This document shows, in pieces, positions 25,832 through 28,645 of a DNA stretch of 64,000 bases. Location of the stretch: NCBI RefSeq assembly GCF_030140925.1, contig NZ_JARBWD010000001.1, positions 1,426,001 through 1,490,000 of the forward strand, read 5' to 3'. Numbering within the stretch: the stretch's first letter is position 1; each line of letters starts with the position of its first letter. Below the pieces are notes generated by a model that saw only the letters and a list, made by a program, of their open reading frames with translations, did no database searches and was not told where the DNA came from. The position numbers and the translations under genes are program-made. Source of the stretch: Parerythrobacter aestuarii (GTDB lineage Bacteria > Pseudomonadota > Alphaproteobacteria > Sphingomonadales > Sphingomonadaceae).

Positions 25832-26520
25832 TGAAACTTTTCACCAAGACTTCGCTCGCCACAGCTCTCGCGCTGGGTGCGACTGCAGCTATTGCCGTTC
25901 CGGCGCACGCGCAGGTTGCCGGCATCGCCACCTCCAGCCCGGAAGCGACGATCCTCCAATCGCAGGCGCGCATCAATGCCTACCAGCAGATCAGCACGAC
26001 CTATGCTGCGCAGATCCAGCAGATCACCACAATGCGCAACGAGATCAACACGCTGCAGCAGGGCCTCGACACCAATGGTGACCGCACTGTCACTCAGGCC
26101 GAGATCGACGCCCAGCCTGCGGTCTGGTCGCAGATCGAAGCCAAGGAACAGCAGGTCGAGCAGGTATCCATGCCGATCCTGATGGCGCAATACTATGTGC
26201 TTGAGCAGCTGCTGGAGCGCTATGGCGCGGCGCAGAACCAGGTCATCCAGCAGAAGAACATCCAGATCATGCTGACGCCGGAAGCGTTCCAGTACGCTGC
26301 CGAAGGTGCCAATGTGACGCCCGATATCCTCGCCGCGCTCAACACCATGGTTCCGACGGTTACGACCACTCCGCCGAGCCAGTACCAGCCGCGCCGCGAT
26401 GTCGTGCAGCTGCACCAGACCATCCAGCAGCTGATCATTGCTGCGGCTCGCCAGCAGGCGGCGACGCAGCAGGCGCAGGGTGCACAGCAGCCGGCTCCGC
26501 AGCAGCCGTCCGGCCGCTAA
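25831..26520 (+). CDS. OmpH/Skp-family periplasmic protein
   Basis: Probable periplasmic chaperone that carries unfolded outer-membrane proteins to BamA. The signal peptide MKLFTKTSLATALALGATAA cleaves near PAHAQ. The body is largely helical and Gln-rich and should form the coiled-coil arms of Skp. The C-terminus is a Gln/Ala/Pro-rich tail. At 229 residues it is longer than E. coli Skp (161) because of that tail and a loop containing DTNGDRTVTQAEID, which looks like an EF-hand-type Asp-rich motif. Its start shares an A with the bamA stop, so the two are coupled. In enterics lpxD would follow; here fabZ does. Confidence 0.85.
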   Translation: MKLFTKTSLATALALGATAAIAVPAHAQVAGIATSSPEATILQSQARINAYQQISTTYAAQIQQITTMRNEINTLQQGLDTNGDRTVTQAEIDAQPAVWSQIEAKEQQVEQVSMPILMAQYYVLEQLLERYGAAQNQVIQQKNIQIMLTPEAFQYAAEGANVTPDILAALNTMVPTVTTTPPSQYQPRRDVVQLHQTIQQLIIAAARQQAATQQAQGAQQPAPQQPSGR

Positions 26521-26544
26521 GCGACAGACAAGGGGGCAGCGGTC

Positions 26545-27000
26545 ATGAGCGAACAGGGTTCTTACGACATCCAGCAGGTGCTGAAGGCCCTGCCGCATCG
26601 CTATCCGTTGCTCCTTGTCGACCGGGTCAAGTCGATGACCCTGGGCGAACGTATCCACGCCGTGAAGGGCGTGACGATGAACGAAGAGTTCTTCCAGGGC
26701 CATTTCCCCGGTGCGCCGATCATGCCGGGCGTGTTGCAGATCGAAGCCATGGCGCAAGCCGCTGCAATCCTGGGCATAGAAACCCTCGAGCTTGCTGGCA
26801 CCGGCAAGCTGGTGTTCTTCATGGGCATCGAGAGCGCCAAGTTCCGCAAGCCGGTAACGCCGGGCTGCCTGCTCGATCTCGAAGTCGAGTTCACGCAGAA
26901 GCGTAGCCGGGTCTACAAGTTCGCCGGCAAGGCCAGCGTCGAAGGCGCGGTCACTAGCGAAGCCGAATTCACCGCCATGATCGCGGATCCGCCTGCATAG
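26545..27000 (+). CDS. fabZ: 3-hydroxyacyl-ACP dehydratase FabZ
   Basis: Hot-dog-fold dehydratase (151 residues) of fatty-acid elongation, forming trans-2-enoyl-ACP. Catalytic His in [11 protein letters not shown] (H53) and Glu in QIEAMAQ (E67) are present. It follows ompH by 24 bases with GGGGGCA before ATG. No lpxA or lpxB follows, unlike the enteric lpxD-fabZ-lpxA-lpxB order. Confidence 0.97.
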
Positions 27001-27001
27001 T

Positions 27002-27258
27002 TTGTTTTTCGCACGCCCATCCGGGCGCGCGTCCTCGGTGCTGTTCCTCCTTTCAGTCGGGCACCTGCGGGGCGCGCGGTCGCGCTTGCCGGGCCTCCAC
27101 CGGCCCGGTGTTCCACAGCAAATTCTCAACGTTTTGGCTTGGTCGCGGAGCACGGTCGGCGACCAGCCGACCGCAAGGCCGACCGGCCGCCCGCAGCGAT
27201 TGGGCCGCAAGGCCCCTTGAGCGAGGACACCGCACGACGGAGGTCGTGCGAAAAACAA
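27002..27258. repeat. inverted-repeat-bounded intergenic element between fabZ and rpmE
   Basis: The 363 bases between fabZ and rpmE hold no gene. Their first 257 bases are bounded by a perfect 14-bp inverted repeat, TTGTTTTTCGCACG (27002-27015) and CGTGCGAAAAACAA (27245-27258). Next to each end lies its own hairpin: an imperfect one, CGCACGCCC-ATCC-GGGCGCGCG, on the left and a perfect one, CGCACGAC-GGAG-GTCGTGCG, on the right. The interior has further GC stems, e.g. CCGGGCC-TCCACC-GGCCCGG. There is no coding potential that I trust. It could be a small non-autonomous repeat element or a structured RNA. The last 105 bases before rpmE are a probable leader. Confidence 0.6.
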
Positions 27259-27363
27259 GAACTCAAAAGGTTGCGCCGAAGCGTCAACATCGCTATCGGC
27301 CCCCATCCAATTTTGACAGCGCGTCCGGTCGGAACCGGGCACAAGCTACGAAGGACGAAGACC

Positions 27364-27588
27364 ATGAAGGCCGAAGGGCACCCCGATTATCACATGATCA
27401 CGGTCAAGATGACCGATGGTACCGAATTCCAGACCCGCTCGACCTGGGGCAGCGAAGGCGAAACGCTCGCGCTCGAGATCGACCCGACCAGCCACCCGGC
27501 CTGGACCGGGGGCAAGCAGCAGCTGCAGGAAGGTGGCCGCGTAGCAGCCTTCAACAAGCGCTTCGGTGGGCTCAGCCTCAAGAAGTAG
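27364..27588 (+). CDS. rpmE: 50S ribosomal protein L31
   Basis: Ribosomal protein of 74 residues, starting [20 protein letters not shown] and ending [12 protein letters not shown]. It lacks the CxxC zinc pairs of the zinc-containing L31 form, so it is of the Cys-free type. ACGAAGGACGAAGACC precedes ATG 27364. A longer reading frame upstream through the repeat element is not protein-like. Confidence 0.95.
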
Positions 27589-27683
27589 GCTGGCAAACAG
27601 TTTGCAGCTTTGGCTGCGAGGGAAGGGCGGTCCGACGGGGCGGCCTTTTTCGTATCGGCTGCCCTGGCTTCAGCCGCCCTGTC

Positions 27684-27998
27684 TTAGGCGCAATTGATGC
27701 AGCGGGTGGCGATCGGGCGAGCCTTTAGCCGCTCGGCAGGGATTGGCTCACCGCATTTGGCGCAGCTCCCGTAGGTCCCGTTTTCAATGCGTGCGAGAGC
27801 GTAACGCACTTGCTGGATTTCCTCGCGCAGCACGTCATCAACGCCTTCCAGCGCTTCGTCATCCGCGAGATCCTGGGCCTGTTCGCTGAAATCCGCATCG
27901 AGCGGGCCGCGCAGGTCGTCTTCGATAACCTCAGCGCGTTGCAGCAGGTCTGCAAGGCGTGCTTCGAGCTGGGTCTTGAACTCGGCAAAATCAGTCAT
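27684..27998 (-). CDS. TraR/DksA family zinc-finger protein
   Basis: A 104-residue relative of DksA, which acts through the RNA polymerase secondary channel. The N-terminal two thirds form a helical hairpin (FAEFKTQLEARLADLLQRAEVIEDD ...). The C-terminus has a four-Cys zinc finger CAKC...CINC inside GTYGSCAKCGEPIPAERL. It is shorter than E. coli DksA (151), and the acidic DxxDxA tip motif is not obvious, so it may not act like DksA proper. GGGGATGG precedes ATG 27998, which overlaps the stop of the upstream hydroxylase gene (TGATG), so the two are co-translated. Confidence 0.9.
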   Translation of the reverse strand: MTDFAEFKTQLEARLADLLQRAEVIEDDLRGPLDADFSEQAQDLADDEALEGVDDVLREEIQQVRYALARIENGTYGSCAKCGEPIPAERLKARPIATRCINCA

Positions 27999-28645
27999 CA
28001 CCATCCCCATGGCCGTTCGCGATACCACTTGGTTATCACATATTTCAGGCCTCTGCGCACTTTCATGCCGTGATGCATTGTATTGACATTGCCGACTTTG
28101 CTCCCGGTCAAATCCGGCTTGCGGTTGTCCCAGCACAGCAGCTTGCCGGTTTCTGGCTTGAAACTCTTCCTGACCATCTTGAAGCGAGTAGCGCCGCCGG
28201 CTTCGACATCGTTCAGGTAAATCATGAAGGTCCATGTGCGCTGGCCGGCGACCGAGCAATATTTCTCCCAATCCTGACCCTGCGGATTGAACCAGTCGAC
28301 ATGGGCCTTGAATTCCTGCCCGATGTCGTAGCGTTGCCCCTGTACCGGCTCGCCATACGTCGGGTCGATCCCGCTCAGTTCCTCCAGCATGGCTTCGAGG
28401 CGTTCGACACTTGGGTCACCGGCATCAAGATCGCAGGTTTCGCTGGTGCGAAAGTAATCATCGCCATTGTGGTCGGCCAAAGTAGATGGCCGGCGGCCCG
28501 CTTCGATCAGGTCAATCAGTTTTGCACATAGTTCGGGTGGCAAGAAGGCCTTGCGCTGGAACAGGTCGAGCTTTTCATATGGCAGGCGTTGGACACCTCC
28601 ATACTGCGCCAGTCGCTCGTTCGAGGATTCGCCTGGATGAACCAT
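27998..28645 (-). CDS. 2-oxoglutarate/Fe(II)-dependent prolyl 4-hydroxylase-like protein
   Basis: Cytoplasmic dioxygenase (215 residues) of the P4H alpha-subunit type. The iron ligands are HVD (H115, D117) in EFKAHVDWFNP and a distal His in TMHHGMKV (H191), and the 2-oxoglutarate Lys lies in RGLKYVITKWYR. The cupin core includes RTWTFMIYLND and GGATRFKM. No signal peptide is seen. ATG 28645 is used; a TTG at 28681 would add 12 residues, and neither has a strong ribosome-binding site. It overlaps the DksA-like gene by one base. Substrates of bacterial P4Hs are mostly unknown, with EF-Tu proline known in one case. Confidence 0.9.
   Translation of the reverse strand: MVHPGESSNERLAQYGGVQRLPYEKLDLFQRKAFLPPELCAKLIDLIEAGRRPSTLADHNGDDYFRTSETCDLDAGDPSVERLEAMLEELSGIDPTYGEPVQGQRYDIGQEFKAHVDWFNPQGQDWEKYCSVAGQRTWTFMIYLNDVEAGGATRFKMVRKSFKPETGKLLCWDNRKPDLTGSKVGNVNTMHHGMKVRRGLKYVITKWYRERPWGW

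Follow-up and report, generated by a model that had tools for sequence, protein, structure and literature searches.

A dispersed doublet of hairpin-rich monomers between fabZ and rpmE, best read as a RAYT-less variant of REP/REPIN-like palindromic repeats in Erythrobacteraceae-like bacteria

Introduction

Intergenic palindromic repeats are common, and what moves those without a RAYT remains open. The rhizobial RIME and the enterobacterial ERIC and BIME sequences are intergenic mosaics of palindromes, and group IIC introns prefer a T tract located behind a terminator hairpin. REPINs are doublets of REP sequences that form hairpins, and their recognition as folded single-stranded DNA has been proposed (PMC3116915). 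The CGTC REPs, which are palindromic, frequent in alphaproteobacteria and mostly arranged as inverted (HH) dimers, have no known dedicated transposase; they consist of an 8-9-bp stem whose first two pairs are A-T, a tag of the CGTC type (also TGTC or CCTC) and a tail of the CCA type (PMC3733652). For Erythrobacter cryptus 3,055 REPs have been listed (PMC12306157).

In this work we analysed a 257-bp element located in a 64,000-nucleotide stretch of DNA (the window) of Parerythrobacter aestuarii. A preliminary description had interpreted it either as a repeat unit (compound REP-like or MITE-like) or as a structured RNA. The results suggest that the element is quite probably a complete doublet copy of a dispersed, non-autonomous palindromic repeat of an Erythrobacteraceae-like family, and that the doublet is, or was, the mobile unit. 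The top FabZ matches bear names such as uncultured Altererythrobacter, Pontixanthobacter and Sphingomonadaceae MAGs, and the term Erythrobacteraceae-like is derived from these.

Results

Anatomy of the element

The element (27002-27258 of the window) starts one base past the stop codon of the upstream gene (26998-27000), and 105 bases separate its end from the start of the downstream gene. We take these genes to be fabZ and rpmE, names that come from the preliminary description and from general knowledge of the two families. The 257 bp have no evident coding function. The perfect 14-bp terminal inverted repeats reported earlier are indeed present (TTGTTTTTCGCACG at 27002-27015 and its exact reverse complement at 27245-27258), and so are the hairpin next to each terminal repeat (27010-27031 on the left, 27231-27250 on the right) and the TCCTCG run on both sides (27032-27037 on the + strand, 27222-27227 on the - strand). 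The TTGTTTTTCGCACG pair is the sole perfect inverted repeat of at least 14 bp with arms 100-300 nt apart in the window, but taken alone it is weak evidence, because 4 of 40 first-order Markov shuffles of the window contained at least one comparable inverted repeat. The predicted fold of the + strand had a free energy of -140.4 kcal/mol (z -5.2) and that of the - strand a z of -5.1; none of 200 shuffles was as good for either strand.

The unit of the structure is a monomer of approximately 125 nt, and the element consists of two divergent monomers placed face to face. A monomer contains, in this order, the outer tag TTTGTTTT, hairpin 1, TCCTCG, hairpin 2, CTGCGGGC, hairpin 3, TTGCGG, hairpin 4 and the tail GTGCTCCGCGACCAAGCC. 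Hairpin 3 has four base pairs around the loop RGTC, and in many monomers the loop of hairpin 4 is TRGTC. The features of the locus are listed below; R1 is a covariance model built from alignment A1, which contains 24 monomers hand-picked from search matches.

26545-27000, + strand: fabZ, upstream gene (open reading frame), whose stop codon adjoins the element
27001-27009, + strand: outer tag of the left monomer, TTTGTTTTT, directly 3' of the fabZ stop codon; the tag occurs in most of 92 end sequences
26999-27127, + strand: left monomer, R1 match of 74.4 bits (G000:C1:1452999-1453127:+); the edges include about 3 nt of flank
27010-27031, + strand: left hairpin 1, loop ATCC; helix 1 covaries
27032-27037, + strand: left TCCTCG linker (sequence; alignment A1)
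27037-27065, + strand: left hairpin 2 (GGTGC ... GCACC), read from the sequence; the hairpin-2 module differs among monomer types
27070-27089, + strand: left hairpin 3, GGGC-GCGC-GGTC-GCGC-TTGC (sequence, pattern search)
27089-27108, + strand: left hairpin 4 (CCGGGCC ... GGCCCGG), read from the sequence; helix 4 of the alignments
27109-27136, no strand: variable centre between the monomers (sequence)
27134-27261, - strand: right monomer, R1 match of 144.1 bits (G000:C1:1453134-1453261:-); also in the seed alignment of the model
27137-27154, - strand: inner tail of the right monomer, GTGCTCCGCGACCAAGCC as read on the - strand (sequence, alignment A1)
27153-27173, - strand: right hairpin 4, loop TGGTC on the - strand (inverted-repeat scan, alignment A1)
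27173-27192, - strand: right hairpin 3, GGGC-GGCC-GGTC-GGCC-TTGC on the - strand (pattern search)
27202-27215, - strand: right hairpin 2 (GGGCC ... GGCCC), read from the sequence; helix 2
27222-27227, - strand: right TCCTCG linker (sequence)
27231-27250, - strand: right hairpin 1 (inverted-repeat scan)
27251-27258, - strand: outer tag of the right monomer, TTGTTTTT on the - strand (sequence)
27364-27588, + strand: rpmE, downstream gene, ATG at 27364 (read from the sequence)

Left hairpin 1 reads CGCACGCCC-ATCC-GGGCGCGCG and has one A.C mismatch, right hairpin 1 reads CGCACGAC-GGAG-GTCGTGCG. The first T of TTTGTTTTT (27001) immediately follows the fabZ stop codon. Reading of the sequence revealed a T tract ahead of hairpin 1 at both ends of the element, thus the element is unlike an intrinsic terminator: a G+C hairpin that has its T tract behind it in the direction of transcription was found at neither end.

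The perfect match between the two ends is explained by both being copies of one conserved monomer end. In 15 dimers of the own genome (G000) and of the congener G004 the likeness of the hairpin 1 region was 0.63 between dimer partners and 0.67 between non-partners, and hairpin 1 is usually not the same at the two ends of a copy, only the short tag and the pairing being conserved.

The element belongs to a dispersed family of inverted doublets

The interpretation as a repeat unit was supported, as there are many copies, the sites are filled or empty depending on the species, and the architecture is that of an inverted doublet. The BLASTN search of the own genome that had been proposed as a check returned multiple copies, as expected for a dispersed repeat rather than for a single-copy RNA gene. 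In this genome (3.02 Mb) there were 20 matches with E<=0.001 at 18 places on two contigs, the query included; one other match spans all but two bases, and most matches span no more than one half. TTGTTTTTCGCACG alone was found with at most 2 mismatches at 22 places as compared to 8 in the reversed control, thus this sequence by itself is a weak genome-wide signature. With the R1 model the own genome yielded 33 monomer matches with E<=1, of which 30 have E<=0.01 (two overlap at one place), and G004 yielded 38; stricter filters left 28 and 37, respectively.

Twenty-six of the 59 genomes searched, including the own genome, had a monomer match with E<=0.01. Twenty-one of them are in the same family and five elsewhere in the order, the latter with weak matches (E 2e-4 to 6e-3). 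The richest carriers within the family were G017 (47 matches), G019 (42) and G004 (37), and G000, G001, G002, G012, G018 and G021 are rich carriers as well. The hairpin 3 core with perfectly complementary stems occurs also in three other families of the order: by our reading of the match list these are 11 of 47 pattern matches in order-level genomes, in G031, G035, G037 and G057. No match with E<=1e-5 was found in plasmid and phage collections, from which near records of the own genome may have been left out.

Fifty-seven of 58 adjacent monomer pairs in nine genomes were convergent, with the TTTG tags pointing outward, and the centres of the doublets varied in sequence and length. This is the REPIN layout, in which two copies of a dispersed palindromic unit stand inverted on either side of a variable spacer. 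The count was made on regions taken from the matches listed, which were complete for G000 and G004; G007 stands outside it, and the overlapping + and - matches in locus L267 fall outside its gap limits. A gap of 22 nt between model matches was constant in 6 of 9 G004 doublets, and the idea that this constant gap is guide-like was dropped since the gap lengths differ in other genomes. In G007 two neighbour pairs with the same direction are part of a tandem array (G007:C15:61802-62360, L217:1347-1933), in which a unit with the hairpin 3-4 core is repeated about 3.8 times in one direction with a period of 155 bp.

Presence, absence and turnover in relatives

Two congeners that are element-free at this site, G002 and G003, have fabZ-rpmE spacers of 104 and 101 bp, respectively, as compared to 106 bp plus the 257 bp in the own genome. 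A short, element-free spacer (95-144 bp) was found in 9 of the 13 relatives measured. Spacers were measurable at 13 of 15 loci of relatives and at 15 of 17 named loci; among these 15, twelve spacers were 98-129 bp long and one (L093) holds an element. The spacers of L095 and L097 (277 and 249 bp) gave no match in the model search, which covered 40 of 80 loci. At the same site G001 has a single interrupted monomer and G004 a doublet of different composition. The spacer is longer in G012 and G017, and the model matches there are weak (22-23 bits). A good match, of 82 bits, was obtained in Sphingomonadales bacterium 12-68-11.

The comparison of sites covered 23 own loci, which account for 30 of the 33 matches in this genome, and 27 loci of G004; the three weakest own matches and the weakest one of G004 were left out. 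At 12 of the 23 own loci the site is occupied in G004 as well, which makes the family at least in part an old one that may have ceased to move. The orthologous G004 stretches of L271, L273, L276 and L280 are element-free and gave no model match. Of the other loci without a partner in G004, which number 11 together with these four, L262, L270 and L277 have no counterpart in the G004 stretches taken, the counterpart of L309 is of quite different length, those of L268, L269 and L310 gave no model match and either have junctions that are hard to read or contain another palindrome. For L266 no alignment to L304 was obtained over the element. A target-site duplication was not readable at the empty sites compared, where the flanks of the species are too diverged for the recognition of short duplications.

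Sites shared by G000 and G004 often contain different modules, and in two cases part of the element is inverted with the flanking genes remaining collinear. This indicates that sites were re-used or modules exchanged. In orthologous copies whole stems differ as blocks and the loops are unchanged. This pattern suggests a second force, either recombination or the correction of hairpin arms. A paired change distinguishes hairpin 1 of the left monomer in L261 from that in the orthologous L285.

Other palindromes were seen at some of these sites. One stop codon is followed in G000 by a weak element match (L310) and in G004 by a different palindrome (L317:2900-3090). L261 and L285 contain a second short palindrome directly beside the TTTG end of the element, which reads GGTCATACCCGGCTGAAAGCCGGGGATGACC in L261 and is almost the same in G004. 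It resembles a CGTC-type REP.

Position relative to genes

Gene neighbourhood could be classified for 48 of 50 loci in two species (two loci had no gene call) with a home-made codon model, in which codons with N counted 0. The flanking genes are convergent at 16 loci, codirectional at 26 and divergent at 6. The element is within 10 nt of the stop codon at 22 of the 42 loci that have a stop side, and within 10 nt of the start at 5 of the 32 loci that have a start side. At codirectional loci 13 of 26 elements were within 10 nt of the stop codon versus 6.5 expected when 50 nt on the start side were protected (simulation p 0.00015, an optimistic value because the gene calls are home-made and 12 sites were counted in both species). 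Monomers were found in both orientations behind genes.

There is also a modest adjacency to terminator-like hairpins. Such a hairpin directly precedes the element at 10 of 92 ends, as compared to 29 of 651 upstream-shifted controls and to 1.7% in shuffles. These counts and those of the end sequences used 92 of 106 monomer rows, short or identical rows being left out. In G000, G004 and G019 the element is directly 3' of a CC2171-like sRNA, which scores below the Rfam cut-off (L264:1829-1995, L296:1821-1989 and L361:601-769 on the - strand; 45-51 bits, cut-off 75). This sRNA carries AAAGGAGGTGATCC, as read in L296 and L361, and has a terminator-like end. In L269 the element begins about 30 nt behind a tRNA-Ala gene, and in L271 a tRNA-Arg gene is directed away from the element.

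The preference for gene 3' ends would also be understandable if the repeats had become immobile and were kept as an RNA fold at operon ends, where they would block 3' exonucleases or read-through. Such domestication would agree with the occupancy of 12 of 23 own loci in G004, with the pairing kept in old copies, e.g. in hairpin 1 of L261 versus L285, and with the elements that directly follow the sRNA in three genomes. However, the congeners G002 and G003 lack the element between fabZ and rpmE, both monomer orientations occur behind genes, the T tract stands ahead of the outer hairpin, unlike in an intrinsic terminator, and G.T pairs have no consistent strand bias. We consider domestication unlikely, yet a serious contender.

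Stems covary, loops and linkers are conserved

The loops NTCC, RGTC and TRGTC as well as the linkers are conserved while the stems vary. In A1 92.4% of the cells are paired, and at 14 of the 25 pairs both partners vary. In the larger alignments A2 (106 monomers) and A3 (126 monomers) 91.8% and 90.9% of the cells were paired, with covariation scores of 0.442 and 0.417, respectively, as compared to 0.112 and 0.107 in shuffles; none of 500 shuffles attained the observed covariation in either alignment. When the partners were slid by 1-3 columns, pairing fell from about 91% to 28-45%. A2 and A3 share some monomers and were fitted to the model that they test, which the slid and shuffled controls answer only partly. 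Hairpin 2 is the least regular (73-81% paired).

The covariation, which the preliminary description would have counted in favour of an RNA, is strong, but here it is a property of a dispersed repeat and gives preference to neither a DNA nor an RNA structure. In stems 1, 3 and 4 the ratio of G.T to A.C cells was 89:109, or 81:56 without one odd pair; these cells single out neither strand, thus DNA and RNA are not told apart as the folded form.

Pairing could alternatively be kept by a mutational process, such as template switching or hairpin-arm correction at replication, and not by selection or by an enzyme reading the stems. Stem changes do occur in blocks, whole stems differ between orthologues with constant loops, and hairpin 3 alternates between G-C and C-G states with almost no intermediates, as such a process would predict; it leaves the conserved loops, the conserved linkers and the convergent doublets unexplained, and as a sufficient explanation we hold it to be rather unlikely.

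Search for a mobilizing function

The Y1 transposase (RAYT) family PF01797 was found in none of 13 carrier genomes, with 5 of 14 control genomes positive, and the Y1 transposase was rejected as mobilizer on this ground. The reverse transcriptase family RVT_1 had a match in 3 of the 13 carriers and was absent from 10, and reverse transcriptase was likewise rejected. In the own genome one RVT_1 domain is located on the second contig (G000:C2:257408-258025, L329).

Among the coordinates of the matches listed, no longer relative was noticed in which two convergent monomers enclose a gene. This speaks against a classical MITE, i.e. a deletion derivative of a DDE insertion sequence with terminal repeats TTTGTTTTTCGCACG, as does the conservation of only a short tag and of pairing at ends that usually differ in hairpin 1; target duplications were not seen either, a comparison of low power. 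Terminal inverted repeats, small size, dispersal and the lack of evident coding are what the element has in common with MITEs, and we find this origin very improbable.

The suggestion that the element is a dedicated structured RNA made between fabZ and rpmE was not supported: it is not single copy, 9 of 13 relatives have a short spacer without it, and there was no Rfam match with E<=1 in 26000-28500 of the window. No Rfam match overlapped elements at E<=0.1 (14 loci) or E<=0.01 (9 loci). That each copy is a gene of a trans-acting structured RNA family, for which the strong covariation and the conserved loops and linkers could be quoted, is hardly credible in view of the lack of Rfam matches over the element or the copies given, the two orientations, the copies often abutting stop codons, the lack of a consistent G.U excess on either strand and the modules swapped at orthologous sites.

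Discussion

The best reading of these observations is that the family is a RAYT-less variant of the REP/REPIN-like mobile palindromic repeats in Erythrobacteraceae-like bacteria. The doublets, the conservation of the loops and the presence or absence of copies would fit a non-autonomous element that is recognized as folded single-stranded DNA. The doublet would be the unit that moves or has moved. Its hairpins with fixed loops could be bound in single-stranded DNA, for example in the lagging strand, by an enzyme encoded elsewhere in the genome, and we infer that it is the loops that this enzyme may read. The enzyme would insert the unit into T-rich sequence 3' of stop codons or terminators. 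Single monomers would represent decayed or recombined remnants, and the modules at a site could be exchanged by recombination or by hairpin-arm correction, with the stems staying paired. In its most specific form, namely that an enzyme which is neither RAYT nor reverse transcriptase reads the hairpin loops (NTCC, RGTC, TRGTC) whatever the stem and inserts doublets at the 3' ends of transcription units, the proposal is offered as a speculation that we ourselves find doubtful.

An inserted element would be transcribed together with the gene in front of it, here fabZ, as its 3' untranslated region, and may protect the mRNA end in the way proposed for REPs. Protection of the 3' end of the fabZ mRNA is a plausible predicted effect.

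The family offers a workable system: its richest carriers have tens of copies per genome, congeners provide both empty and filled sites, the stems covary very strongly around fixed loops, and gene 3' ends are markedly preferred. Caution is advisable too, as strong covariation in intergenic DNA need not imply an RNA gene. In the literature searched we recognized no published name for this dispersed hairpin repeat, which is no proof of absence. An overlap with the REPs listed for E. cryptus (PMC12306157) is possible.

Among the known systems, group IIC introns have a T-tract preference that resembles a minority of the element sites; unlike these introns, the element has no reverse transcriptase, 10 of 13 carriers lack RVT_1, and there is no Rfam match. 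RIME and ERIC/BIME, as generally described, are like the element in being intergenic palindrome mosaics, and they occur in different taxa. With the CGTC REPs the element shares the palindromic character, the alphaproteobacterial host, the inverted dimers and the lack of a known dedicated transposase. In contrast to these REPs, the hairpins lack A-T pairs at the start of the stem, and the unit has several times their length (PMC3733652). In a comparison of alignment A1 with the description in that paper, the CGTC-type tag, the A-T stem start and the CCA-like tail were not found. The CCTC inside the TCCTCG linker may be a chance likeness to the tag.

The likeness to REPINs is closer. Both are non-coding, dispersed and extragenic, both have two inverted units around a variable spacer, and both display compensatory changes, singlets beside doublets and, in places, tandem clusters (PMC3116915). 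The differences are that the monomer is about 125 nt long with four hairpins as opposed to a short REP, that no RAYT (Y1) match was found in 13 carriers, that there are tens of copies, and that the outer tag is TTTGTTTT. A GTAG tag beside a short palindrome was not found, the monomer having the outer tag TTTGTTTT and the linkers TCCTCG and CTGCGGGC; GGTAGC or a variant of it occurs in the inner tail of some G004 doublets and is not general. With neither a RAYT nor the short GTAG-tagged palindrome, the element is not filed as a REPIN here, but it works like one.
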